Below are positions 1,084-31,646 of a stretch of DNA of 60,133 bases, in pieces; position 1 is the stretch's first letter; the number at the start of each line of letters is the position of its first letter. Position numbers and translations under genes: made by a program. Origin of the DNA: a virus. Location of the stretch: the IMG/VR virus record IMGVR_UViG_3300042453_003688, positions 1-60,133 of that record; one strand, 5' to 3'. The notes beneath the pieces are model-generated. The model worked only from the letters and a program-made list of their open reading frames with translations, searched no databases and was not told the origin of the DNA.

Positions 1084-1576
1084 TAACACTCCAGGTGACA
1101 CTCTGCATTCCGTAGCAGCTGAGGTTATTTTCCAACCCACAGAGCCCCAGCGCAAACTGAAGGCTACCCTGCTAGCCAAATTGGCAGACAACCCCCTCTA
1201 CGACCTGGCTTCCCTGTCCCTGGCCCAAGTGCAGGAACTAACCAGCAATAGTAGCGTCCACAAATGGTGGTCCACCCCCGGATTCTCCGACTGGCTCCTG
1301 GATAAGAATGAGAACCGGGCCAAGCTGGAATACCTATTCTCTCTAGCCCTGGAAGCAGCCGAGCAGATTCTGATGAACACTGACCCCAAGGCCCAAGGTT
1401 CCCGCGTAGCAATGATAAAGACCCTGGCTGAGTTGGCCGGCAAGCTACCCGGTAAACAACCGGCAGCAGTCTCTAAAGCCAACGAAATCGCAGCCGTACA
1501 AACCATGGACCGCACTCAACTAATGGAATTCCTGGCTACTCGTGGCCTTATTTCTTCTGTCCCCAATAAAGAATAG
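1070..1576 (+). CDS. Probable terminase small subunit
   Basis: 168 residues, ATG with AGGAG five bases upstream. The protein is mostly helical, with a segment of the kind VHKWWSTPGFSDWLL followed by a helical domain rich in Ala and Leu, resembling small terminase proteins that recognise the packaging site and feed DNA to the motor. Length fits the family. It lies at the far left of the virion gene array, 5 kb away from the large subunit at 6596, which is unusual but known in some podoviruses. No catalytic motif is expected, so the call rests on overall look and position. Confidence 0.5.
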   Translation: MRRSSNTPGDTLHSVAAEVIFQPTEPQRKLKATLLAKLADNPLYDLASLSLAQVQELTSNSSVHKWWSTPGFSDWLLDKNENRAKLEYLFSLALEAAEQILMNTDPKAQGSRVAMIKTLAELAGKLPGKQPAAVSKANEIAAVQTMDRTQLMEFLATRGLISSVPNKE

Positions 1577-1631
1577 TAGACAACCCCAACCCTCTTTGTT
1601 AAGATGACAGGGCAGTGCAGGAAGTTATAGA

Positions 1632-2216
1632 GTGCTAATTCATCCCGGTACGCAAACTCAACTGGTGAAGTTATCCGCTCCCGCAGCCGGTACTACTGCT
1701 AGGGATTTCTCTATCCAATCGGACGCCGTCCTCCTATCGCTCTCGGCTAGCGCAGTCTCCGGTAACCTAAGCGTAGTCGTCTACCCAGTGGCCTCCGACG
1801 GCACGACTTCAAGCCCCGCTCTGGTTTCGTTTCCTGTACTTTCTGCTCCCACCTCCGGGATAGTTACCGTACAGTCTGGCGTCATCCCCAGTGCCCTGCG
1901 TCTGGTGGCTACCTACTCTGGTCCCTGTTCCTTCGAGGTCGTTGCCAAGGCAGTATCTTCGCCGGTAGGTGAAGTGGAAATAGTAGGCACCGTAGACGTT
2001 GAGCTGGTAGAAAACCTGCGTCAACAAATCCTAAAGGCAGCAGACAGAGTGACCTCTTACACCTACGCCGATGTAGCATCCAACAAGAATCGCCGCATTA
2101 CTAGAATAGACTACACCGCAAGTTCCATCGGCAGCTACACTGCCAGACGAAATATAAATTACACGCTAGTGGGGACTGAATACGTCCGCACTACAGATAC
2201 ATGGGAGATATTATAA
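1632..2216 (+). CDS. Putative virion/tail protein
   Basis: 194 residues starting at a GTG with AGGA nine bases upstream. The N-terminal part is Ser/Ala/Val-rich beta-strand-like sequence (about residues 10-110), the C-terminal part is more charged with TSYTYADVASNKNRRITRI. No family recognised. It sits between small terminase and a run of beta-rich tail genes, and its TAA is two bases from the next ATG, so it probably belongs to the same tail or fibre unit. Confidence 0.75.
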   Translation: MLIHPGTQTQLVKLSAPAAGTTARDFSIQSDAVLLSLSASAVSGNLSVVVYPVASDGTTSSPALVSFPVLSAPTSGIVTVQSGVIPSALRLVATYSGPCSFEVVAKAVSSPVGEVEIVGTVDVELVENLRQQILKAADRVTSYTYADVASNKNRRITRIDYTASSIGSYTARRNINYTLVGTEYVRTTDTWEIL

Positions 2217-2218
2217 CA

Positions 2219-4564
2219 ATGAAGTTAGTAGACCTCAACCTACTGGATAGCGTCGGAACGAGCTACGACCAGACAAGAACCACAATCGCTGGACGAGTAA
2301 CACAGCGGACGATTGATTCTAAGCCGGTGCTTGGTCCATCACCAACTAGGTTTTTGGACGTTTTCTCGGATACGGCGGGCGCGTTCACACCGACGACCAC
2401 TATGTTTGCAACCGACAATGGCCGCATTTTCATGATTGGTGCCGTCGCTGGTGGCGCTCTCCCAGTCGTCTGTTATGAAATAAATCAATCTACAGGCCAG
2501 CACACTTATGTTGGTCGTATAAACATTATCATGCCCGGGCAGGGTCCGTTGATTGTTCACACAATTCGTTCAATTAAAGTGATTGATAACGGAACTACGG
2601 GCTGGAAAATATACGTCATAGCAACCGGAACTATTCTGCTTGGTGGCTCTGGTGTTTTACTTGCAAACAATATTTCACGCTCAGACTTTTCTCAGGTATC
2701 TCCTCCAACCATTCCATTTGCTACTGGCAACGACCAAAAAGCAGTTTACCAACTAGGTCGCTTGCCTTCTCTTAATTCACGCTCAATGACCATAACGTTA
2801 GGAACACCTGTAAAGTTCAACTTCGTTGGTCATGGCTTTAATAACAACGACCAAGTTTATTTCACTTCGCAAGTTGGCCCGGCGTGGACGACTTCGACAT
2901 TTGTGGTCAACACAAAGTATTTTGTCCGTAATGCAACAGCCAACGACTTCGAACTTTCAGCGTCATTCAACGGAGCATCGATAGGTGCCGCCGCTGGACC
3001 TACTTCAGTAGTTATGCAACCACTGAATCAAGAGCTTGACGCCTTTGGAGCAATTATCGATGTGGCAAACAATAGGTTATACACCCACGTTGGAACTGCC
3101 GCGCTTTCTCAGTATTTTGTGCGGGATACGTCAGTTGCCCCAACATACTCAACGCTGACGGTCGACGTGATAACAGGAACGCCAGCTAAAATTTCACTTA
3201 TTTCCCACGGCCTGACAGAAAATGAGCCTGTTCAATTTTTAGCAGGCTCTCTTCCAACCGGATTTTTGCTGAACACAACTTACTTTGTGCGCAATCCAAC
3301 GGCTAACGACCTTGAGCTTTCTGCAACGGCTGGCGGTGCATCTATTAACGCCGCAACAACCGCAGCGGGAGTGACTCTCGGAAAAGCTTTTGGTTACACA
3401 AATAGCCAGTGGCTTCACAAAACAAGCATTCTTCCAGCCATTTCTGGGACACTTCTTTCAACAACAGACGTTGATGCTATAGCGACGCCAACAAATGCTC
3501 CACTTAACGGCTCACTACTTAACGGCCAGAAGTGTGCATTTTTTGCAACATCGACTAACCTCTATCTCGGAAGGTTAGACGAGCTAACTTCTGAAACCAC
3601 AAATTGGCCAAGCCTTACAACATCCAACATGCTTGGCTTGCCGTCTCAAATTGTTGCGCCAGTTGTTGTTAGTGCAAGTTGGTCGGATGCTCTTGACCAC
3701 GCAATAATTTTGTTTGGTCAGGTTGCTGTCGCTCAATTCAGGTTCATGCTCAAAAAAGTCGAAAACAATAAAATTACCACCATGTTCGGGGGCGTTAACG
3801 CCGACTTTTATGAGACGACAACACGAGAAGCTTACAAATTAGAACTGGCAGCGCAGCCTCTCAACTTCACAAATAACAATGGGTGGCTATTTGCTATTAG
3901 CGGTGCAACTGGGCAGCGCGGCATTATAGCTTCAGACGTTCGCTCAGACTGTCTTTTTGACCACAGCTACATTGTCTCTAAGGTTGTCACGCTCCCGCAG
4001 AATTCAATACTTAAAGCCATCGTTGCGATGGAAGAATTGGCAAATCAATCCGGATTAGTAGATGTTTACTACCGCACATCGGGCTTTGGTTCGATAGCTG
4101 GCGGCTGGACATCTATTGACGACAAGCAGGAACTCAATCTTTCTGTTGCGTCACAAGTTCAATTTAAGCTTTGTTTTAAAACTCACTCAATTGAAAGAAC
4201 GACCCACGTTCAAGTTTCTGATGTCTTTGTTGGATACGACGCGCTGGAAGAACTCTCAGACAATTGGGAATACTCCTACGACGACTCCTCCTCAGGTTCT
4301 CCTACTCGAATTGGTTTCCGCCTGAAGCAGGCCTACGCTAGCGCAGTCCCATTAACACTAAGATTCCAGGCTTCTGACCTCAGTGCTACAATTGTAGTTA
4401 ATCAGACAATTACAAGTAATCCCAGCAACTTTGAGTACTCGACAGACGGTGGAACTACCTGGCTTGCCCTCGGTACAATTCCTAACGTCGTGGGTACCCT
4501 GGTACGGTACACCTTCACGTCGCCTCCTGGAACTGACATTCGCCCAAGCCTGAAGGATAGCTAA
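2219..4564 (+). CDS. Large beta-rich tail/fibre protein
   Basis: 781 residues from the ATG at 2219; the upstream in-frame ATG at 2201 would overlap the previous gene and has no better ribosome-binding site (GGAG at 2204 suits 2219). Two related modules of about 70 residues (near 195-265 and 320-390) share the pattern GTP-K-HG and TKYFVRN/TTYFVRN-TANDLELSA, a fold seen in phage tail and adhesin proteins; this is an internal duplication. The base composition is more AT-rich and codon use differs from the flanking genes up to about 4300, suggesting acquisition of a receptor-facing module. Exact role unknown. Confidence 0.75.
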   Translation: MKLVDLNLLDSVGTSYDQTRTTIAGRVTQRTIDSKPVLGPSPTRFLDVFSDTAGAFTPTTTMFATDNGRIFMIGAVAGGALPVVCYEINQSTGQHTYVGRINIIMPGQGPLIVHTIRSIKVIDNGTTGWKIYVIATGTILLGGSGVLLANNISRSDFSQVSPPTIPFATGNDQKAVYQLGRLPSLNSRSMTITLGTPVKFNFVGHGFNNNDQVYFTSQVGPAWTTSTFVVNTKYFVRNATANDFELSASFNGASIGAAAGPTSVVMQPLNQELDAFGAIIDVANNRLYTHVGTAALSQYFVRDTSVAPTYSTLTVDVITGTPAKISLISHGLTENEPVQFLAGSLPTGFLLNTTYFVRNPTANDLELSATAGGASINAATTAAGVTLGKAFGYTNSQWLHKTSILPAISGTLLSTTDVDAIATPTNAPLNGSLLNGQKCAFFATSTNLYLGRLDELTSETTNWPSLTTSNMLGLPSQIVAPVVVSASWSDALDHAIILFGQVAVAQFRFMLKKVENNKITTMFGGVNADFYETTTREAYKLELAAQPLNFTNNNGWLFAISGATGQRGIIASDVRSDCLFDHSYIVSKVVTLPQNSILKAIVAMEELANQSGLVDVYYRTSGFGSIAGGWTSIDDKQELNLSVASQVQFKLCFKTHSIERTTHVQVSDVFVGYDALEELSDNWEYSYDDSSSGSPTRIGFRLKQAYASAVPLTLRFQASDLSATIVVNQTITSNPSNFEYSTDGGTTWLALGTIPNVVGTLVRYTFTSPPGTDIRPSLKDS

Positions 4565-5652
4565 TGTCTAATCTTCTATTTGCCGGAGGCCCTGTTGTAC
4601 AGGGCACTACTCTCGGCAATATATTCGGTAATCAGCTTATAACGGGCGGGGCTATCCAGTCCAGCTCGCAAGCTTGTATTATCGACCTGACGCCTCCCAC
4701 CTTTGCAGGCATCACGTTCCTGGGCAGAGGGGCTCTAGGTCAATTACGAGCCATGTGGTCAGCAGCCTCTGACTCATCAGCTCCCATTAGGTATGAAGTG
4801 TATGTACAAGAAGAGCCAGCCTCCAATCTATTCCACCCTAACAACGTCGCCCTTGTAACTCCTAATTTGCAAGCAGACATTTTCGCCATAGCCAACGGCA
4901 CACTTCTGCAATCCGGTGTAAAATACTACGTCGGCGTGCGGGCAGTAGACGCAGTCGGTAATCGCGATAATAACACTGTTAATTTATTTCAAACTAGTCC
5001 AGGCATTACAGGCGCAACTAACGCCTCTATTAACGGTGTATTCGCTGTTAATACCAGTAATCAGCTTATTGCCAGTTTCTGGGTAAACGACAACGACGGC
5101 GTAATCAGTAATCCAGCCCGTCTGGGTCTCGCTAGCTACGTTATCTACGACCAGAACGGCAATCTCGTGCCAAGCATGACACAGAGTAACATTGCTCCAG
5201 ACGCTGAAGGATTCTACGAAATTACTCCAGTCGCTTCTGTTCTGGACCTGGATAATACTTACTACACCGTCAAGGTAACTATTCCGGTTGACGGCATATC
5301 AATTGTTTACAACCTGCCAATTACCTACGCTGAAGCTGGTCCTCAGTACGAGCCTCGGGCAGTCTTTAGTATCGATGCCGCTAACCAGTTGCAGGCTACC
5401 ATCTGGATTACTAAGAACGGAGAACAGCTAAGCAGTAACCTGGGCACCGCTTCTTACGCCATCTACAACAGAGACGGTATAGCTGTGGGCATTTCTCAGT
5501 CAGGAATTACGGCAGACGTTAACGGCTTGTTCAAGATTGCCCCAGTCATTGCCAGCTCTATCGTTGACTTAACCCACTACACTGTTATAATTACAGTTAC
5601 AGCCGATGGGGCGGTTCGCAAAGGCGCCATTGGAATCACGGTGGCTGAATAA
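4564..5652 (+). CDS. Tail protein with FN3-like domain and duplicated module
   Basis: 362 residues, start overlaps the previous stop (TAATG). Residues about 35-145 resemble a fibronectin type III domain (ends YYVGVRAVDAVGN). The rest holds two copies of a module of about 100 residues, recognisable by FAVNTSNQLIASFWV and FSIDAANQLQATIWI, and by LASYVIYDQNG and TASYAIYNRDG. Such beta domains decorate tail or capsid surfaces and help attach to the host. Family name not known. Confidence 0.75.
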   Translation: MSNLLFAGGPVVQGTTLGNIFGNQLITGGAIQSSSQACIIDLTPPTFAGITFLGRGALGQLRAMWSAASDSSAPIRYEVYVQEEPASNLFHPNNVALVTPNLQADIFAIANGTLLQSGVKYYVGVRAVDAVGNRDNNTVNLFQTSPGITGATNASINGVFAVNTSNQLIASFWVNDNDGVISNPARLGLASYVIYDQNGNLVPSMTQSNIAPDAEGFYEITPVASVLDLDNTYYTVKVTIPVDGISIVYNLPITYAEAGPQYEPRAVFSIDAANQLQATIWITKNGEQLSSNLGTASYAIYNRDGIAVGISQSGITADVNGLFKIAPVIASSIVDLTHYTVIITVTADGAVRKGAIGITVAE

Positions 5653-6197
5653 TGGCTACCAGACGGGTAAACATGTTAACTAATAATCACTATGTGCAGC
5701 CGCTAAAGCTAGCCTTCTTCAATAGGAAAGTGATTGCTCCAGGCGCTGCTTACAATAGCTTGATTACTAAGCCAACTTACGAGAGGCCGCAGTTTAGGGA
5801 CTACAAGATTAAGGCTTGGATGCGCTTTAATTCTAATACTTTCGATGGCGCACAGCTTATAGCCAGCCTGGTGCTGGATAATAAGTTCAAATCAATTGGC
5901 TCCTGTACATTTAAGTTGTACTCTATTGACCCCTCTAGCAATTGGACAGAAACACTTCGAGCAACTCTTCCAGGCACTGCCCTTTCTCCCAGCAGATTTG
6001 CAGTAGACGTTTCAGAAGCCCTGGTTCTCCCTGCTGACTTCACGGGCGAACTAACTTATAGACTTGAGGTAGAATTGACCCGCTATGCTAAAGTATATCG
6101 AGACACTTTCTACTTCAATCATGTGGGCATTTACGGCAGTCTTATTAGCCTTAAGAACAAAGTAGAATTCTTAGACATAACTAAATTGGACGAATAA
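5652..6197 (+). CDS. Putative virion protein
   Basis: 181 residues; ATG overlaps the preceding TAA. Mixed beta-strand-like sequence with many aromatic residues (YKIKAWMRF, YRLEVELTRYAKVYRDTFYFNH). No recognised family. Translationally coupled on both sides to tail genes, so likely a minor virion protein, perhaps binding the neighbouring fibre components. Confidence 0.7.
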   Translation: MATRRVNMLTNNHYVQPLKLAFFNRKVIAPGAAYNSLITKPTYERPQFRDYKIKAWMRFNSNTFDGAQLIASLVLDNKFKSIGSCTFKLYSIDPSSNWTETLRATLPGTALSPSRFAVDVSEALVLPADFTGELTYRLEVELTRYAKVYRDTFYFNHVGIYGSLISLKNKVEFLDITKLDE

Positions 6198-6200
6198 ACA

Positions 6201-6584
6201 ATGAACGCTTGGATTCCACGCCTAATATCCCTACCACTATCTCCCACTGTAGTCGGAGCTTCACAGACTAACGTACCGGTCAGTAAACGCTTCGCTATTA
6301 CAGCAGGCGGCTCTCGCAGTATGGTAATTGCCATCAAGGCCAGCAGCGTAACAGCGGGAGCTGGCATCACTGCCAAGCTGCGTTCCAGCATTGGAGAGAA
6401 CACTCCAGTAGACGCAAAGACTGTCAGCATAGCAGCAGACGGCATTGTCTACCTGAAGCTGGATATCAATATTTCTGGCGACCAGACCCATCTTCCCCTG
6501 CTTTCCTTGGGCGAAATTGTTCTTACAACCGGCGCAGGCAGCGCAGCAACTATTGATGCTGTTTGGGTTCTTCAAGAAGATTGA
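6201..6584 (+). CDS. Small putative virion protein
   Basis: 127 residues with ATG three bases after the previous stop. Low-charge Ala/Ser/Val-rich sequence of probable beta strands, reminiscent of short capsid- or tail-decorating proteins. No family recognised. It is the last gene before the large terminase. Confidence 0.7.
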   Translation: MNAWIPRLISLPLSPTVVGASQTNVPVSKRFAITAGGSRSMVIAIKASSVTAGAGITAKLRSSIGENTPVDAKTVSIAADGIVYLKLDINISGDQTHLPLLSLGEIVLTTGAGSAATIDAVWVLQED

Positions 6585-8474: not shown

Positions 8475-10496
8475 ATGGCACGTATCGTAACCTGGACTCC
8501 TGACGCCGCTAAAAAAGAATTAGCTAAACGGCTTCAGTACTGCAAGGATGCACGAAAAAACCACGAGTATCAGTGGGAAGAGTGTGAGCGGGCCGTATTC
8601 AATACACGCGCCAAGAGTTTCTCACCAAACCTATCTGTATCCTTTCAATCTGAAGTAGAGCTTGGTATCACTGACGTCGACGCAAGTACAAACGACATCG
8701 GTATTAACTACACTTTCAAGAACCTCCGTTTCATTCACTCACAACTCTCAGCTAATCCCCCCTCAGTAGTCGTGCGCCCCACGTCGAACGACCCGTCTGA
8801 CCGCCGCAAGGCCGACGCTGCTGACAGGCTTATAAGATTTGCCCTGCGTCAGTATAAGATGCAGGAACTTTTCGACCGCACCTCCATGTACACTCTCGTC
8901 CTCGGCACCGGATTCGTCAAAACAATCTGGGACCCAGAGAAGGGCGACATTATCGACATGGATGAAACTACTGGCGAACTGACAATGGAAGGGGACATTA
9001 CTGTAAGTAATCCCTCCACTTGGGACGTCTACATTGACCCTGACGCTACCTGCTGGGACGAAGTAAAATTCATGTTCGAGCGTATCTACATGCCGTATGA
9101 GGAAGCTCTTTTCAAGTTCCCAGGCATGGAAGAGATTCTAGAGAAGGTACGCATTAAAGAAGAAGCACAGCGTCACGAGTACGGGTCACACACCGCCCTG
9201 ACTGAGAAGAAGTACGACGTTGTAGAAGTCTACCAGTACTGGGAAAAGGGTCTGCCGTACAACGGTATGGTAGGCAGGTTCTGCTACTTGACCCGCGACG
9301 GCGACCTCCTGACTCCAGTTGGTCCTAATCCCATGCGGTTTTCTCCACCACGTAATCACGGCATTGAAGACCTCTCTAACAGCATGGAAGAAATGAAACC
9401 CCTTCCAGCTAAGGCAGTGCTTCCCTATCACATCTTCACTGACATCGACCTTCCGGGCACCTGCTGGGGTCGCAGTATCGTAGCGTTCGAGGCACCGCTT
9501 CAGGATATGTATAATAGGATGCTTAACGTGACGATGGATAACATCCAGGCTCACGGTGTAGCTCGCCTCATTCTCCCCGAAGGCGCAGAGATTGCTGATG
9601 GCTCGATTACTAACAGCCCCTGGGACATCGTAAAGATTACAGGCAATCAGCCTCCCCACTTCATGGAACCTATGCCCCTGCCTACTGCAATGCCACAGAT
9701 GATAAATATGGCTAAGCAGGGGATAGATGACATGGCAGGCGTTAACGAAGCCATGTTCGGCCAACAGTCCAGAGAACAGTCTGGCTTCTCGATGCAGTAT
9801 GCTACCAATCAAGGTAACATGATACGTCGAAGATTATTTAATAAATACGTACTACTTACTGAGAACGTCTATAAGGCTTTCCTTAACCTGGTGAAAAAAC
9901 ACTGGGAAGAGAACAGAGTTATTTACGTACTCGGTAAAGAGAAAGCATTCGAAGCAGTCGATGTTAAAGGAAGTGACATTGACGGTGGATTTGACCTGGT
10001 GGTAGAATACGGTGCAAGCCTTTCCTTGGACCCGACTACGCGCCGCCAGGAAATCCTCACGATGATGCCTCTTTTCAAAGAAGCAGGCATCTCCCCACGT
10101 ACAGCCCTTCAGCTCCTTAAACTCAACGAACTGGAAGGCATGTACGACATTGTTCAGATGGCTGAAGATAGGCAGCGGGAAATCTTTGAAGAGATGATTG
10201 CCAAAGATATCTACATTCCGCCTCGCGAAATGCAAGACCATACTAACATGCTAAGTTACGCATACAACTTTGTTATGACTAGCGAATTCAAGTACCTGCG
10301 CCCGGAACACCAGGCCCTGATTGAACGCCATATCAAAGAGCGTGAGCAGTTGAAGATGGCCAGTGCAGCCGCTGCCCAACCAGGCGCTCCAGGAATGCCC
10401 GGCGCAGCCCCCGCCCCCGGCGGTCTCCCAGCAGTACCTGGTTCAGGCGGCCCGCTTGACGTAATGCAAGCTGGCCCTAACATCGTGAACAAGTAA
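8475..10496 (+). CDS. Portal protein
   Basis: 673 residues. Ring-forming head-tail connector through which DNA enters and leaves. The sequence has the portal hallmarks: helical N-terminus, LRFIHSQLSANPPSVVVRP near 90, WDVYIDPDATCWDE near 185, a stem/crown region with long helices (TAMPQMINMAKQGIDDMAG, about 400-420) and a low-complexity Pro/Gly/Ala C-terminus (about 635-660). Position directly between terminase and scaffold/capsid supports the call. No unusual truncation. Confidence 0.88.
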   Translation: MARIVTWTPDAAKKELAKRLQYCKDARKNHEYQWEECERAVFNTRAKSFSPNLSVSFQSEVELGITDVDASTNDIGINYTFKNLRFIHSQLSANPPSVVVRPTSNDPSDRRKADAADRLIRFALRQYKMQELFDRTSMYTLVLGTGFVKTIWDPEKGDIIDMDETTGELTMEGDITVSNPSTWDVYIDPDATCWDEVKFMFERIYMPYEEALFKFPGMEEILEKVRIKEEAQRHEYGSHTALTEKKYDVVEVYQYWEKGLPYNGMVGRFCYLTRDGDLLTPVGPNPMRFSPPRNHGIEDLSNSMEEMKPLPAKAVLPYHIFTDIDLPGTCWGRSIVAFEAPLQDMYNRMLNVTMDNIQAHGVARLILPEGAEIADGSITNSPWDIVKITGNQPPHFMEPMPLPTAMPQMINMAKQGIDDMAGVNEAMFGQQSREQSGFSMQYATNQGNMIRRRLFNKYVLLTENVYKAFLNLVKKHWEENRVIYVLGKEKAFEAVDVKGSDIDGGFDLVVEYGASLSLDPTTRRQEILTMMPLFKEAGISPRTALQLLKLNELEGMYDIVQMAEDRQREIFEEMIAKDIYIPPREMQDHTNMLSYAYNFVMTSEFKYLRPEHQALIERHIKEREQLKMASAAAAQPGAPGMPGAAPAPGGLPAVPGSGGPLDVMQAGPNIVNK

Positions 10497-10594: not shown

Positions 10595-11755
10595 ATGAGT
10601 GCAACAAACGTCAAGACCGCTAACCCGGTTGTAGACAACCCTGTAGCATCGGCACTGGACGCCCTCAAGGGCGGTAAGGATGTTGAAGCTGCAGTGTACG
10701 GTTCTTCCTCTGCTCCCAAAGTAGAGGCTGGCGCACCTTCCTCAGCAGATGCGGACGAGTCTACGTTTAATGTAGATTCTTTTATGTCTGGCGAAGAGGC
10801 CCAGGTTCAGCAGGATAGCTCCATTGAAGGAGGAGTTTCCGAAGAGTCCACACTTGATGAAAAGGTCCCCAACTCTGCTTCTAAACCGGCGGCAGATATT
10901 GAGGAAATTCTTATCACGGACGACAGTGGAAAGAAGAAACTCAAGGTCGATTGGTCTGACCGGGAAAGACTGAAGAAGTATGTTCAACAAGCTGCAGGAA
11001 TGCGCAAATTTCAGGCTGAAAGAGACCAACTCACCACTAAGCTCAAGACTATAGAGCCTGAGTATCAGGACCTTAAGAAGAGCTGGGGTGCCATTGAAGA
11101 AGCCTTCTCGAAAGGCGGAATCAAAGGATTGGTTAACTTGCTTGCCAATGACCCACAGGGTTATGATAAGCATCTTCAAAATGAAGTAGGACGCATCAAG
11201 GCACGCGAAGCCGCTACGCCGGATGAACTTGCTCGCATGGACCTCGAAGAGAAACTGACTCTGGAGCGTAGAGAGCGCGAACTTCTGCAAAAGAAAGTAG
11301 AAGCTGACCTCAAGCGTTCTCAAGAAGAAAGAGAAGTTGCCTCCCTGAAGTCTCTCGAAGCACAGGTACATCCAGCATTCGACAAGTACCGTTTCGCAGG
11401 TAAACTGGGTGACGATGTTGTTGAGGCACGGCTTGACCAGGCTGTTTGGGACCAAGCTCTCAAAAGGCTGGAACAGTATCCGGACGACGTTGAGTTATCT
11501 TCCTCCCTTATTGATAAAGAATTCCGTGACGTAGCTAACAGCTTCCGGAAAATCATCAATAAGCAAGCTGAGGTAAAGGCTAACAAGGTCGTGACCAGCA
11601 AGAAAATTGCTGCTCAGGAGAACGCTGCTACAGCTGCTATGAACAGCATGATGGCCAACACTGCTCAGTCCGCTGAGAAGTTTAAGCAAGATATTCGCAA
11701 AGGTGACCTTACCAGTGCCCTTCGCGACATGATGACTGGTAAATTTAAGTTTTAA
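10595..11755 (+). CDS. Capsid scaffolding protein
   Basis: 386 residues with ribosome-binding site AAAGGAG. Acidic, low-complexity N-terminal third, then long charged helices likely to form coiled coils (about 125-270), ending in a short basic tail (MTGKFKF). This is the typical make-up of phage scaffolding proteins, which guide prohead assembly and then leave. It lies just before the capsid gene, from which it is now separated by an inserted HNH nuclease gene. The 98 bases ahead of it (10497-10594) hold no gene. Confidence 0.8.
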   Translation: MSATNVKTANPVVDNPVASALDALKGGKDVEAAVYGSSSAPKVEAGAPSSADADESTFNVDSFMSGEEAQVQQDSSIEGGVSEESTLDEKVPNSASKPAADIEEILITDDSGKKKLKVDWSDRERLKKYVQQAAGMRKFQAERDQLTTKLKTIEPEYQDLKKSWGAIEEAFSKGGIKGLVNLLANDPQGYDKHLQNEVGRIKAREAATPDELARMDLEEKLTLERRERELLQKKVEADLKRSQEEREVASLKSLEAQVHPAFDKYRFAGKLGDDVVEARLDQAVWDQALKRLEQYPDDVELSSSLIDKEFRDVANSFRKIINKQAEVKANKVVTSKKIAAQENAATAAMNSMMANTAQSAEKFKQDIRKGDLTSALRDMMTGKFKF

Positions 11756-11784: not shown

Positions 11785-12408
11785 ATGGTAAAATACTGCA
11801 AATACTGCAAAGTTGAACATCAGTTGACTGAATCATTCTGGTATAGGCTAAATTCTTCACCAAGGTGTAAAGTTCAAGTAAAACAAAAAGTTATACTAAG
11901 ACAATCATCGTTAAAGCAGCAAGAATACAGAAAATACCAGAAAGAATATAGGTCAAGGAGGAAGGACGAAAGACTAGAGCAAAATAAAGTTTGGCGAGAA
12001 ATTAATCGAGAATATCATAGGGCTAGTTCCCGTAAGTGGTATCAAGATAATAAAGCTAAACGGAACAAGCAGGTCAGTCTCCGCCTCAAAAAAGATGTAA
12101 TGTTTAGATTAAGGAAAAATATAACCAACAGATTAAGAGTTGCTCTTCAGGGAAAAATGAAACCTGAAACAATGAAACAGTCATTAGGTTGTACTTTACT
12201 TGAATTAAAACAACATCTTGAACAACAGTTTACTCAAGAAATGACTTGGGAAAACTATGGCAAGGTGTGGCAAATCGACCATATACTACCTCTAGCCAAT
12301 TACTTGTTAACTGACAGAGGTACTTATAGAAGGTTGTCTCACTATACAAATCTTCAACCGTTATTAAAGTTAGATAATCAAATTAAAAGTAACAAGGAAA
12401 TCAATTAG
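11785..12408 (+). CDS. HNH homing endonuclease, free-standing
   Basis: 207 residues. N-terminal Cys pairs (YCKYCK at 4-9, RCK near 29) suggest a small zinc-binding element; then a very basic helical linker; and a C-terminal HNH site WQIDHILPLANYL ... HYTNLQPLLKLDNQIKSNK (about 165-205), where the DH and N-x8-N/K residues form the metal-binding nuclease centre. Markedly AT-rich compared with the genes around it, a sign of recent arrival. It ends two bases before the ATG of capsid exon 1 and its last codons (AAG GAA) supply the capsid ribosome-binding site. It is outside the intron that interrupts the capsid gene, yet only 38 bases from the insertion site. Confidence 0.9.
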   Translation: MVKYCKYCKVEHQLTESFWYRLNSSPRCKVQVKQKVILRQSSLKQQEYRKYQKEYRSRRKDERLEQNKVWREINREYHRASSRKWYQDNKAKRNKQVSLRLKKDVMFRLRKNITNRLRVALQGKMKPETMKQSLGCTLLELKQHLEQQFTQEMTWENYGKVWQIDHILPLANYLLTDRGTYRRLSHYTNLQPLLKLDNQIKSNKEIN

Positions 12409-12410
12409 TT

Positions 12411-14023
12411 ATGGCATTTAGTAATATTGACAATTTACAGCTCGGTGAATAATTTGCCGCCCCATGTCACTCTCTGAGTACTTGGGTGCATAATCGGGCA
12501 AAAACGGTGAAGGCTGAAACGCTAATACCGTGGTAAGTCTGAGAAATCAAAATCTCAGACCACCGTAACGCATAGACAGTGACCCTACCTAGTAGAATAT
12601 AACCTGTCCAAGAGTGTCCGACCCGCGAGGGAAAATATATGCTGAACTATAGCGAAACACAAGCTATAGAAGTTAGGATAAAAAGCCTAACGATAACACA
12701 CTGAAATTTCTCCAAATTGCATTCTCTGAAGGCGTCCGTTCACAAATCTCCAGCGACTATCGTGACTGGGAATATGTAAAGCGTCACCGCGTTAGCGACC
12801 CAGATGGTCGTGAGCTGCGCTTCTTGTTCCAGAAGAGCTACGGCCCGGCTGCTATCCAGTACCGCAATCCAAGCGGCAGCACCGTGTTCCCGTCTGCTCA
12901 GCAAATCACCGTCTCGGAACACACCGCTGTGTTCAAGGAAATCAACGCAACCATCGAGCTCGAGTACAACTTGTGGGACCGCGCACGTCGCTCGCCTTCC
13001 AAGTATGCTGAGCCGCTGGCCCTGGAAATTCAGTCGAAGACGATTGCTTCCAAGCGTCGTTTAGCTGCTGACATGTATGGTGACGGCACGGGAGTCATTG
13101 CTGAAGTTGCTTCAGTTATCTCTCTCGCTTCCGGCGTTGCTACCCTCCAGCTCTCAACAAGCGCATCGTCCCCTGGACACATCGGTTTCTGTGAATTCGG
13201 TGACCTCTTGGTCGCTGCTGACAGTGCTGGTGCTGCAGTTCTTCCATCAGGCGCAGCTTCCTTCTACGCTTACCGCGTGAAAGAGCGTCGTCGTAAATTG
13301 GACCAAGTCGTCCTTGAAGTCGTTGACTCTGCTGGTAACGTGATTACCGGTGCATCGGCTACTAACCTCGTTTCCGGCAATTTGCTCTACCGCGTTGGTC
13401 AGCCAACCATCCCGAACCGTACCTCTATTTCGGACTACGGAACTGTTACTGAAGTTATGCCTGGCCTCCAGTCTCTGGCAGCCGCTGACGGTCGTACTGT
13501 TCACGGTATCGTTATGAGCGGTGCTAGTGCAGCTACCCAGATTGACGCAGCAGGTAACCCGCTGGACGTTAGCCAAGTTCAGGAAATGATGGACGCTGTG
13601 AAAATCAACGTCGGCCAGTCTGCTTACAGCTGGAAGATGCTTGCTATGGCTCCTGAAGCACACGCTGCCCTGATTGAATCACGTGAAACTGACCGCCGCT
13701 TCCAGTCTGTGGAAGACAATAAGCGCGGTATCCGCGTGTTCGCATACGTTCACGGCAACGACGTTCTCGAAACCTACACCTCTGAATATGTTCAGAAGAA
13801 GCAAATGTACGCTCTGCCGGAAGCCAAGTCAGGCCAGAAGGTTCTGGAAGCCTACATGACGGACTTCGAACCCGTTAAGATGGGTGGCATGGGTGAGTTC
13901 CACCTGAAGCCAGCTGCTAGCGGTGGACATGAGCGGAAAATTTCGAGCTACATGCAGTGTCTGACCACATTGATTTGTAAGCACCCGGCTGCTATCGGTC
14001 GTCTCTCGAACTTCTCTCTCTAA
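12411..14023 (+). CDS. Major capsid protein (two exons: 12411-12446, 12704-14023)
   Basis: Spliced product 451 residues. Exon 1 encodes 12 residues (MAFSNIDNLQLG); exon 2 continues in frame with KFLQIAFSEGVRSQI. The body has the signature seen in major capsid proteins of this group, EYNLWDRARRSPSKYAEPLA and ASKRRLAADMYGDGTG. Without splicing, translation would stop at a TAA (12450-12452) after 13 residues, so virion assembly depends on removal of the intron. A start within exon 2 (for example near 12824) would cut off the conserved N-terminus and lacks a ribosome-binding site. A strong hairpin terminator-like element follows the next small gene. Confidence 0.9.
12447..12703 (+). ncRNA. Group I self-splicing intron in capsid gene
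   Basis: 257 nt, no ORF. Splice sites follow from pairings read in the sequence: P1 pairs exon end CGGU (12443-12446) with GCCG (12456-12459), giving the obligatory U-G pair; P10 pairs exon 2 AAAUU (12704-12708) with AAUUU (12451-12455); the last intron base is G (12703). Core helices in canonical order: P3 (12484-12487/12582-12585), P4 (12504-12508/12527-12531), P6 (stem 12537-12544/12553-12560), P7 (12570-12574/12638-12642), P9 (12647-12653/12663-12669), P9.1 (12672-12677/12686-12691). Joining these sites restores one capsid frame. Confidence 0.92.
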
Positions 14024-29063: not shown

Positions 29064-31646
29064 ATGGCATCACCTCTCGACAGACTTCAATCCCAGTTCC
29101 AGCTTGGTGGGCAGACAGTAAGCTCCAGTGCTGAAGAGCTACAAGGCCTATCTGCTAAGGCAGGTAGACAGGCTCCTCCTACGCAGCCTCTTGAAACTGC
29201 TGTCCTTGGTGGTACGCCCAGTCAAGCTAAGATGGCTGGCAGCAGTGCTAACTTGGGTCTGGCTCAACGCCTATCCCTCACCCCTCAACAAGAATTACCA
29301 GGGTACCTCCGTCAATTACAAGCCTCCCGTCCTCTCCTTGAACAAGAGCAGGAGAGAATTACTCGCGCTAAGAGTATGGGGCAACTCAATAGCCTTGAGG
29401 AGCGCGTACAGGCTGCAGCCGTTAAGCAGTTACAAACGGCACCAACTACCTCTGCCGTACTTAAGGTGGCTGACGATAAGTTACCTAATACCCTCACGCC
29501 TGAAAATAAGGCCAAGGCTACCGAGCTTCTTAGTCTCATTGGTCAGGGCAAGGATGAGGATGACAGTGGTAACGATGTCTACGCTCAGCTTATTCCCTTG
29601 CTTGGCTACGGCACCTCTGCTGATGTTTCCATAAATGATATCAAAGCTGACATTAAAGATAAGTATCTGACGAACGCTGAGACTGAGATGGCTAAGGCCG
29701 CTGCCAGCGGTATGCCTGACCAACTTCTAGTTTCCCAATTAGCCCCAGAAGACCTTGGCTTTACAAACTGGGGCGAAGTAGCGGCTCTTCTCAAACTTCC
29801 TCCAGAGACTGACCTAGGCTCTCTTACCATACAGCAACTTACTGACCAGGTGCAGAAGGTGCAGGCCGAGGAGTATTCCCGCACCAGCGCACTCCTTCGC
29901 ATAGTTAATGACCCTAACGTAGGTGCTGCCGAGAAAGAGGCCGCACGTAGACAACTGGAACAACTGGGTGCCACTGGCGTAATGGCCGCAGAGGCTGACG
30001 TTAGTAACCTTGCCGCTCAAGTAGACGACATCAATACTGTCACCATTGCTGGCAAGGACTACACTGTTAGTGAGCTGCTGTCAGACAAGGGTGTGGCTTC
30101 TATTGTTAATGACTACTTGAAGAATCCAGATAGGGCTGCCCTCATAAGAGAGGCCTCCCCACAATTGGCAACCTGGATAGACAGTAATAAGACTGCTCTC
30201 GAAAACATTGTTGGCAAGATTGACCCGGGATTTCAGGCTGTAGCAACTACGATTGAGAACAATGCCAAGCTGCAGACCCCTGCTACTGGCGGCGAACGTC
30301 TTAATGACAATGTTATGCAGACTCTCTTTGGGCAGAACTGGAAGTCGTCTACTACGTCGCTAACTCCCCCGGCTATCTATTCAGCCCTTAGTCCCACGAA
30401 CACCACAGTATCCAATCAGGTTAAGTTGGACCTTACTCGTCTTCTTAATACAATGTCAGACAGGCCGAACGATATTACCTACCTAGCCGGACTCTCTGAA
30501 GCTGAGTTAGAAGAAAAGGGCCTTTTGGACCCGGCTGGCATTGCTCGCTACTCGTCCTACATACAGTCTTCTGAGCAGCTGGCTGGCGCTCTGGGGGACG
30601 GTGCTTCAGTCTCAGGCATAGTTGCATCTGTCTTCGGCGACAAGATAAGTACGTCAGGATTTAATGAGCTACTAGAGCAAGTCAGAATTATCAATGATAC
30701 TAATCTGGTATCCGACCTCACCCCGCAGGAGCTAGAAGTTCTCAAGATTTTCGATGCTGACGGTGACGGAAAGATGGATAGTATTTCTGAGATACACTCC
30801 CGTGCCCAGGATATGTTCAGCGGTAAATCTTTGCAGGACCTGGTGGGCGGAGCTAACGACATCAAGAGTGGGGCAGATTTGCTCTCCTCTCTGCAGGGCA
30901 AAATAATCGCCGCCCAGTCTGACCCGACATACATTAAGTTTAAAGACATACTGTCTGACGGTAAGATTGGGAGTGATGAAATTACACAACTTGAACAGAG
31001 TAATGCCTCTATTGAAGACCTGCAGTTAATGATTGATAAAGGGGTCCCAGGCTCAGCTGCAGTTAAATCTCTTGTTGATAAAAAGATATCTTCTGAAACT
31101 GATTCTATATTAAAAAATATCTCATCAAATCTTAGTAACTATTATAGAGGCAAGCAAGTCAGCGATGAGGATGTTATGTCCGGTATCCAGCTTCTATATA
31201 AAGCTATTGACGAAGATACTATCCCGGCAACCAATCAGGCAGTTAGAGATGGCATTAAAGCCAGGCTTAATGAATTAGTAGATAAAAAGCTGGATGAAAT
31301 TTCTACTCGTAAAACTAATGAAAAGACATCTAGTACAGCCCCTCTTAAAGTGCAACTTGATAGAGTATCGGTTAAAGTTGATACTGCTAAGGCCGAGTCA
31401 GACGCAGCCGCTACTGCCTACAGGGCTAAAACTACAACATATGGAAGTCAATCTGGGCCACGTCCGGGAGTAACAAGGGATGAGTGGCTTAAGGCTAAAA
31501 GTTATGCAGATAAAACGCTCGCAACATATAACAGCTTGAATGCTCAAAAAAATTCTATTTCATCAAAAATCACTGAAAAAGAAAAAGAAGTAGAAAATAG
31601 ATATAGTTCCACAGAAACCAGTTTGCGTGGATATAAAGTACAATAA
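29064..31646 (+). CDS. Internal virion protein with EF-hand-like loop
   Basis: 860 residues from ATG 29064 (AAGGG upstream); the frame is open from 29028 but that start is a TTG. Mostly Ala/Leu/Gln-rich helices, as in ejection proteins. Around residue 562 a calcium-loop-like stretch FDADGDGKMDSISEIH occurs, and about 75 residues later a second, shorter one (SDGKIGSDEITQLEQ); position 12 of the first loop is Ser rather than Glu, so metal binding is doubtful. The last 200 residues are encoded by more AT-rich DNA. No enzyme motif seen. Confidence 0.75.
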   Translation: MASPLDRLQSQFQLGGQTVSSSAEELQGLSAKAGRQAPPTQPLETAVLGGTPSQAKMAGSSANLGLAQRLSLTPQQELPGYLRQLQASRPLLEQEQERITRAKSMGQLNSLEERVQAAAVKQLQTAPTTSAVLKVADDKLPNTLTPENKAKATELLSLIGQGKDEDDSGNDVYAQLIPLLGYGTSADVSINDIKADIKDKYLTNAETEMAKAAASGMPDQLLVSQLAPEDLGFTNWGEVAALLKLPPETDLGSLTIQQLTDQVQKVQAEEYSRTSALLRIVNDPNVGAAEKEAARRQLEQLGATGVMAAEADVSNLAAQVDDINTVTIAGKDYTVSELLSDKGVASIVNDYLKNPDRAALIREASPQLATWIDSNKTALENIVGKIDPGFQAVATTIENNAKLQTPATGGERLNDNVMQTLFGQNWKSSTTSLTPPAIYSALSPTNTTVSNQVKLDLTRLLNTMSDRPNDITYLAGLSEAELEEKGLLDPAGIARYSSYIQSSEQLAGALGDGASVSGIVASVFGDKISTSGFNELLEQVRIINDTNLVSDLTPQELEVLKIFDADGDGKMDSISEIHSRAQDMFSGKSLQDLVGGANDIKSGADLLSSLQGKIIAAQSDPTYIKFKDILSDGKIGSDEITQLEQSNASIEDLQLMIDKGVPGSAAVKSLVDKKISSETDSILKNISSNLSNYYRGKQVSDEDVMSGIQLLYKAIDEDTIPATNQAVRDGIKARLNELVDKKLDEISTRKTNEKTSSTAPLKVQLDRVSVKVDTAKAESDAAATAYRAKTTTYGSQSGPRPGVTRDEWLKAKSYADKTLATYNSLNAQKNSISSKITEKEKEVENRYSSTETSLRGYKVQ

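Follow-up and report, generated by a model that had tools for sequence, protein, structure and literature searches.

A group I intron in a probable phage major capsid gene, and the nuclease gene beside it

Introduction

What is an insert doing twelve codons into a gene that probably encodes a major capsid protein, and how did it come to be there? The question is raised by IMG/VR record IMGVR_UViG_3300042453_003688, of which we analysed positions 1 to 60,133 (hereafter the window, 60,133 nucleotides in all). The original prediction, made from these letters, was that a group I intron of 257 nt follows codon 12 of the capsid gene and that its removal rejoins a single frame of 451 codons. We examined the frames, the RNA structure, the relatives and the neighbourhood of the insert.

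The interrupted gene

The features of the interrupted gene are as follows.

12411–12446, plus strand: capsid gene exon 1, 12 codons, MAFSNIDNLQLG
12447–12703, plus strand: group I intron, 257 nt, with terminal G12703 and no nuclease gene within it
12450–12452, plus strand: in-frame UAA, 3 nt into the intron, in the reading frame of the unspliced RNA
12704–14023, plus strand: capsid gene exon 2, 439 codons plus stop

The unspliced frame that opens at ATG 12411 reads MAFSNIDNLQLGE and then stops at the UAA, after 13 codons, as had been predicted. Deletion of 12447–12703 restores one frame of 451 codons. Because the bases that flank the two splice sites differ from each other, the insert cannot be slid and its boundaries are unique. 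An earlier 5′ splice site, which would place the upstream nuclease gene (described below) inside the intron, was rejected because intronless relatives conserve the exon 1 sequence.

What does the gene encode? Exon 2 matches the NCBIfam family capsid_maj_Podo over nearly its full length, at E 2.9e-10 and 39.9 bits against a cut-off of 80. The same family is matched by all 11 of 11 relatives at E ≤ 0.001, and the PHROG ‘major head protein’ by four of the 11. Upstream lie a P22-like portal gene (8475–10496) and, where a scaffold gene would be expected, another gene (10595–11755). Pfam gave no match for the capsid exon, and a sequence search of solved structures gave none for the capsid protein. 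AlphaFold models of exon 2 (11 sequences) were poor, with a mean pLDDT of 49, and fold matches are uninformative. From the below-cut-off family matches and the gene order, we consider the gene probably to be that of the major capsid protein.

A search of IMG/VR with exon 2 recovered 14 relatives, 52–94% identical, and the GTDB genomes supplied one more. All 15 of these capsid genes lack the insert and run uninterrupted across the site. In the closest, L010 (94% identical in exon 2), the junction is exactly as predicted, MAFSNIDNLQLG being followed directly by KFLQIAFSEGVRSQI, and its capsid reads MAFSNIDNLQLGKFLQIAFSEGVRSQI, precisely the predicted spliced product. A second relative, L163, is likewise uninterrupted at the predicted junction. 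The covariance model described below detected no intron of the same family in any of the 14 viral relatives, nor was one found in ten contigs that share the 16-base junction; a 27-base core of the exact intron sequence had no match in other contigs. The frames and the intronless relatives thus bear out the position and length of the insert as first proposed, together with the rejoined frame.

Structure of the intron

If the insert is a group I intron, can its RNA adopt the expected fold? The pairings are listed here.

12443–12446 (CGGU) with 12456–12459 (GCCG), plus strand: P1, 4 bp, with a U12446·G12456 wobble at the 5′ splice site
12451–12455 (AAUUU) with exon 2 12704–12708 (AAAUU), plus strand: P10, 5 bp, from the sequence
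12460–12489, plus strand: P2-like hairpin, from the minimum-energy fold, outside the covariation alignment
12494–12500 with 12615–12621, plus strand: P3, two-sided changes in 6 of 7 pairs, 100% paired
12504–12509 with 12526–12531, plus strand: P4, counted with P5, 5 of 9 pairs covarying
12512–12514 with 12521–12523, plus strand: P5, counted with P4, 5 of 9 pairs covarying
12532–12534 with 12562–12564, plus strand: P6, counted with P6a, 7 of 8 pairs covarying
12537–12560, plus strand: P6a hairpin, counted with P6, 7 of 8 pairs covarying
A12568, bulged C12569 and 12570–12574, with 12638–12643, plus strand: P7, 100% paired
12575–12579 with 12604–12608, plus strand: extra hairpin in the P7.1 position, 5 of 5 pairs covarying
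12622–12631, plus strand: P8, 3 bp with a GCGA loop, the helix covarying across relatives
12647–12653 with 12663–12669, plus strand: P9, 6 of 7 pairs covarying
12672–12677 with 12686–12691, plus strand: second 3′ hairpin (P9.1-like), then a conserved GAUAACA, 6 of 7 pairs covarying

The P1, P10, terminal G and P3-P4-P6-P7-P9 order named in the original prediction are all found in the sequence. It had not listed P5, P8, the hairpin in the P7.1 position or the second 3′ hairpin, which are present too.

Twenty-two core sequences were aligned and folded, and pairs were counted on an explicit structure that includes the P3/P7 pseudoknot. Among the 22, 97.5% of the cells are paired, against 33–43% in slid controls, and 42 of the 54 core pairs change on both sides. 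Double changes number 283, compared with 78 in shuffles; the covariation score is 0.668, whereas shuffles give 0.198 and slid controls no more than 0.143. Not one of 500 shuffles reached any of the five covariation measures. The fold of the window intron is itself more stable than that of its shuffles (z = −4.4). Covariation therefore supports the core helices P3–P9, which stand in canonical order with the P3/P7 pseudoknot.

P7 deserves closer attention. The G–C pair beside its bulge is invariant in 22 of 22 sequences, the bulged base being A or C (columns 126–129 with 257–259), and the pair across the bulge is A–U, G–C or C–G. Two further counts come from the same helix: two of its pairs show two-sided changes, each in 11 of the 22 sequences. 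G12570–C12642 is the expected guanosine site. Introns of subgroup IA (IA1/IA2) carry one or more extra hairpins, P7.1/P7.2, between P7 and P3. We conclude that the insert belongs to the group I introns and has an IA-like extra hairpin, P7.1, and that codon 12 of the capsid gene is almost certainly followed by such an intron. The presence and exact limits of the insert, the uninterrupted relatives and the covarying core can all be read directly from the DNA.

How might the intron be removed? Full-length capsid protein would require two-step, guanosine-initiated self-splicing. The guide strand GCCG (12456–12459) would pair with the end of exon 1 to form P1, and free guanosine bound at P7 (G12570–C12642, beside the bulged C12569) would attack after U12446. 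P10 would then position exon 2, the exons would join and the intron would be released at G12703. Ribosomes translating unspliced RNA would be halted at the early UAA, 3 nt into the intron, before they reached its core. Both the chemistry and splicing in vivo we infer from the family to which the intron belongs; at 4 bp its P1 is short, which we count against this account.

The window and L010 differ by silent third bases at both splice sites, CTC for CTT in P1 and AAA for AAG in P10 (window 12443 and 12706). In both cases the window base pairs better with the intron guide than does the L010 base. Either they came from a donor by co-conversion, or selection for splicing favoured them.

The intron family

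Does the intron belong to a wider family? With the window left out of its construction, a covariance model matches 12493–12646 at 132.9 bits (E 2.4e-32). By blastn against phage genomes, intron-like relatives occur in Bacillus, Clostridioides, Mammaliicoccus, Arcanobacterium and crAss-like phages; several of these lie between pieces of a gene or beside endonuclease genes. The conserved 3′ motif recurs in at least 120 stretches in IMG/VR. Two sequences that the family model had not seen also match it: the large terminase gene (terL) of Lactobacillus phage JCL1032, at 110 bits, and Staphylococcus phage ROSA, at 86 bits. The GenBank annotation of JCL1032 terL gives two joined pieces, with the intron as the gap. 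Clostridioides phage pCD1602_4 carries two introns of the family (970–1230 and 1499–1740) about 270 bp apart. Within the window, the only candidate for a second copy was a 16-bit match of the covariance model at 31355–31511, which we take as chance.

The Rfam group I model, RF00028, found no match in the window at gathering or relaxed thresholds. Nor did it match any of ten same-family relatives, JCL1032 terL included. In a control on T4, JCL1032 and ROSA, which showed the model to lack sensitivity, the T4 td and nrdB introns scored 36.9 and 35.7 bits, both under the threshold of 50. Since Rfam also misses JCL1032 terL and places td and nrdB below threshold, its negative result in the window is uninformative. 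The original prediction had counted the lack of a covariance-model hit as a refutation; that is an unsafe test, for the Rfam model misses accepted phage introns. Like the window intron, td and nrdB are group I introns below the Rfam threshold, and by annotation they belong to subgroup IA, but the family model of the window intron does not match them.

The adjoining nuclease gene

Immediately upstream of the capsid gene lies a gene that the original prediction overlooked.

11785–12408, plus strand: HNH/endonuclease-VII-like gene, 207 aa, free-standing and outside the intron (PHROG 1035)
12394–12399, plus strand: AAGGAA, from its sequence the likely capsid ribosome-binding site, in the last codons of the nuclease gene

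This open reading frame matches PHROG 1035 ‘endonuclease VII’ at E 2.6e-7 and contains the motif string IDHILPL...NLQPL...DNQIKSNK; Pfam and a sequence search of solved structures gave no match for it, and a search of the viral contig collection gave only one relative. Its GC content is 34%, against 49% and 54% in the flanking genes and 49% in the genome. The gene is absent from 14 of 14 intronless viral relatives. L010 has no nuclease gene between its scaffold and capsid genes, which are about 50 nt apart; its native capsid leader is AATAAGGAAGAAAGAAG, and homology with the window restarts at 12409, directly after the nuclease stop. That stop is 2 nt before the capsid ATG; with the ribosome-binding site in nuclease codons, the two genes may be translationally coupled.

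Are the nuclease and the intron partners? The HNH/endonuclease-VII-like enzyme would cut capsid genes that lack the intron, close to the point of insertion, and repair would then copy nuclease and intron together, as in collaborative homing. A free-standing nuclease adjoins an intron-bearing gene here, and both are missing in the 14 relatives. Comparable arrangements are known. In cyanophage S-PM2, the free-standing nuclease F-CphI adjoins the psbA gene with its group I intron, and the annotation of F-CphI names endonuclease VII-like families (PMC6083498; Zeng et al. 2009); it differs in having a DHDH motif and measured cleavage, whereas the window nuclease has the motif string given above. 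In phage ICP1 a nuclease gene lies by the N-terminal exon of the intron-split large terminase gene rather than in the intron, although the nuclease is of the T5orf172 type and the host gene is another (PMC10448857). A nuclease outside the intron, as in S-PM2 psbA and ICP1 terL, therefore fits a homing partnership (PMC6083498, PMC10448857).

Two further comparisons come from the intron's own RNA family. In JCL1032 an HNH gene immediately precedes the interrupted gene, which differs in being the large terminase. The contig L091 (IMG/VR 3300006162_000015) has tandem same-family introns in a major-head-protein gene (approx. 1395–3145, minus strand), with a different endonuclease gene inside each. 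One of these endonucleases is akin to the window nuclease (34.5% over 171 aa, E 2e-25); the other has a VDHDH motif (endonuclease VII/F-CphI-like). L091 thus shares RNA family, type of host gene and a relative of the nuclease with the window, but it has two introns and its endonuclease genes lie within them.

The nuclease might instead be an unrelated free-standing homing gene that settled in the same intergenic spot, leaving a genuine intron to rely on recombination or vertical descent. Four nuclease relatives that we looked at in other phages stand alone and have no same-family intron nearby, as this reading would have it; homing nuclease genes commonly cluster near essential genes (PMC10448857). 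The joint absence of nuclease and intron from the 14 relatives argues the other way, as do their separation by only the 36-nt exon 1 plus 2 nt, the relative that sits within a same-family intron in L091, and the HNH gene directly before the split terL of JCL1032. We consider an unrelated nuclease quite conceivable, and collaborative homing by the nuclease–intron pair the likelier account on balance. Nuclease and intron occur together once, and in none of the 14 relatives, a pattern of single gain that could also represent two separate insertions.

A more specific proposal is that the pair forms a split mobile unit. The nuclease gene would have taken the place of the capsid leader, would supply the ribosome-binding site and would cut the capsid genes of intronless relatives that co-infect, such as L010. 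This we put forward tentatively, and would not be surprised to see it fail.

Introns in head-protein genes

Is a capsid gene an odd place for such an intron, as was originally supposed? Among 92 downstream exons of the same-family matches listed, the tape-measure protein is commonest (41 of 92), endolysin-named families account for 22, a count that may overlap, and terminase, helicase, portal and capsid families are found among the remainder. By direct check, head-protein exons follow such introns in at least seven phage genes (L056, L060, L081, L088, L091, L101 and L128). In L056 (approx. 4600–6275, minus strand), two same-family introns, at 127 and 131 bits, lie upstream of an SU10-type major head protein exon. 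Capsid-gene introns have also been published for phage Tuc2009 and mycobacteriophage LittleE (Pope et al. 2013, PMC3706429). With these cases the description of the site as odd falls away: group I introns in phage capsid genes are already known, and the window adds another.

LittleE offers a close published comparison. There too a major capsid gene is interrupted by a probable group I intron that relatives lack; exon 1 ends in U and the intron in G, and splicing was demonstrated by RT-PCR and protein sequencing and described as efficient (PMC3706429). By that published description, to which the likeness is owed, its intron differs in being 819 nt long, with a nuclease gene inside it on the opposite strand.

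Could splicing serve the phage as a switch for the yield or timing of capsid synthesis? The original prediction saw a possible point of control here, and the one thing in favour of a switch is that without splicing there is no full-length protein. Nothing we found suggests regulation: 15 relatives do without the intron, the same family occupies head genes no differently from tape-measure, lysin, terminase and helicase genes, and the capsid-gene intron of LittleE is efficiently spliced as described (PMC3706429). A switch is most improbable. No more credible is translation from an internal start in exon 2 (e.g. TTG 12824) past a degraded, non-splicing remnant, since the 399-codon internal reading frame that exists would lose the conserved N-terminal block LLQIVFSNGVRNQI common to the relatives, and every core helix is intact, the invariant P7 pairs included, with no decay.

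Conclusion

The best reading of the intron is that of a mobile passenger which splicing makes nearly neutral, and not of a regulator. Its family has a bearing beyond this genome. The single group I model of Rfam misses a large family of phage introns; some of the genes they interrupt may be annotated as broken or as beginning within exon 2. The locus itself offers a clean, short case in which homing, co-conversion and competition are directly testable: a capsid intron that a close relative lacks, with a separate nuclease gene beside it. If nuclease and intron do form a split mobile unit, the pair would spread and competitors would be handicapped at a gene needed late.
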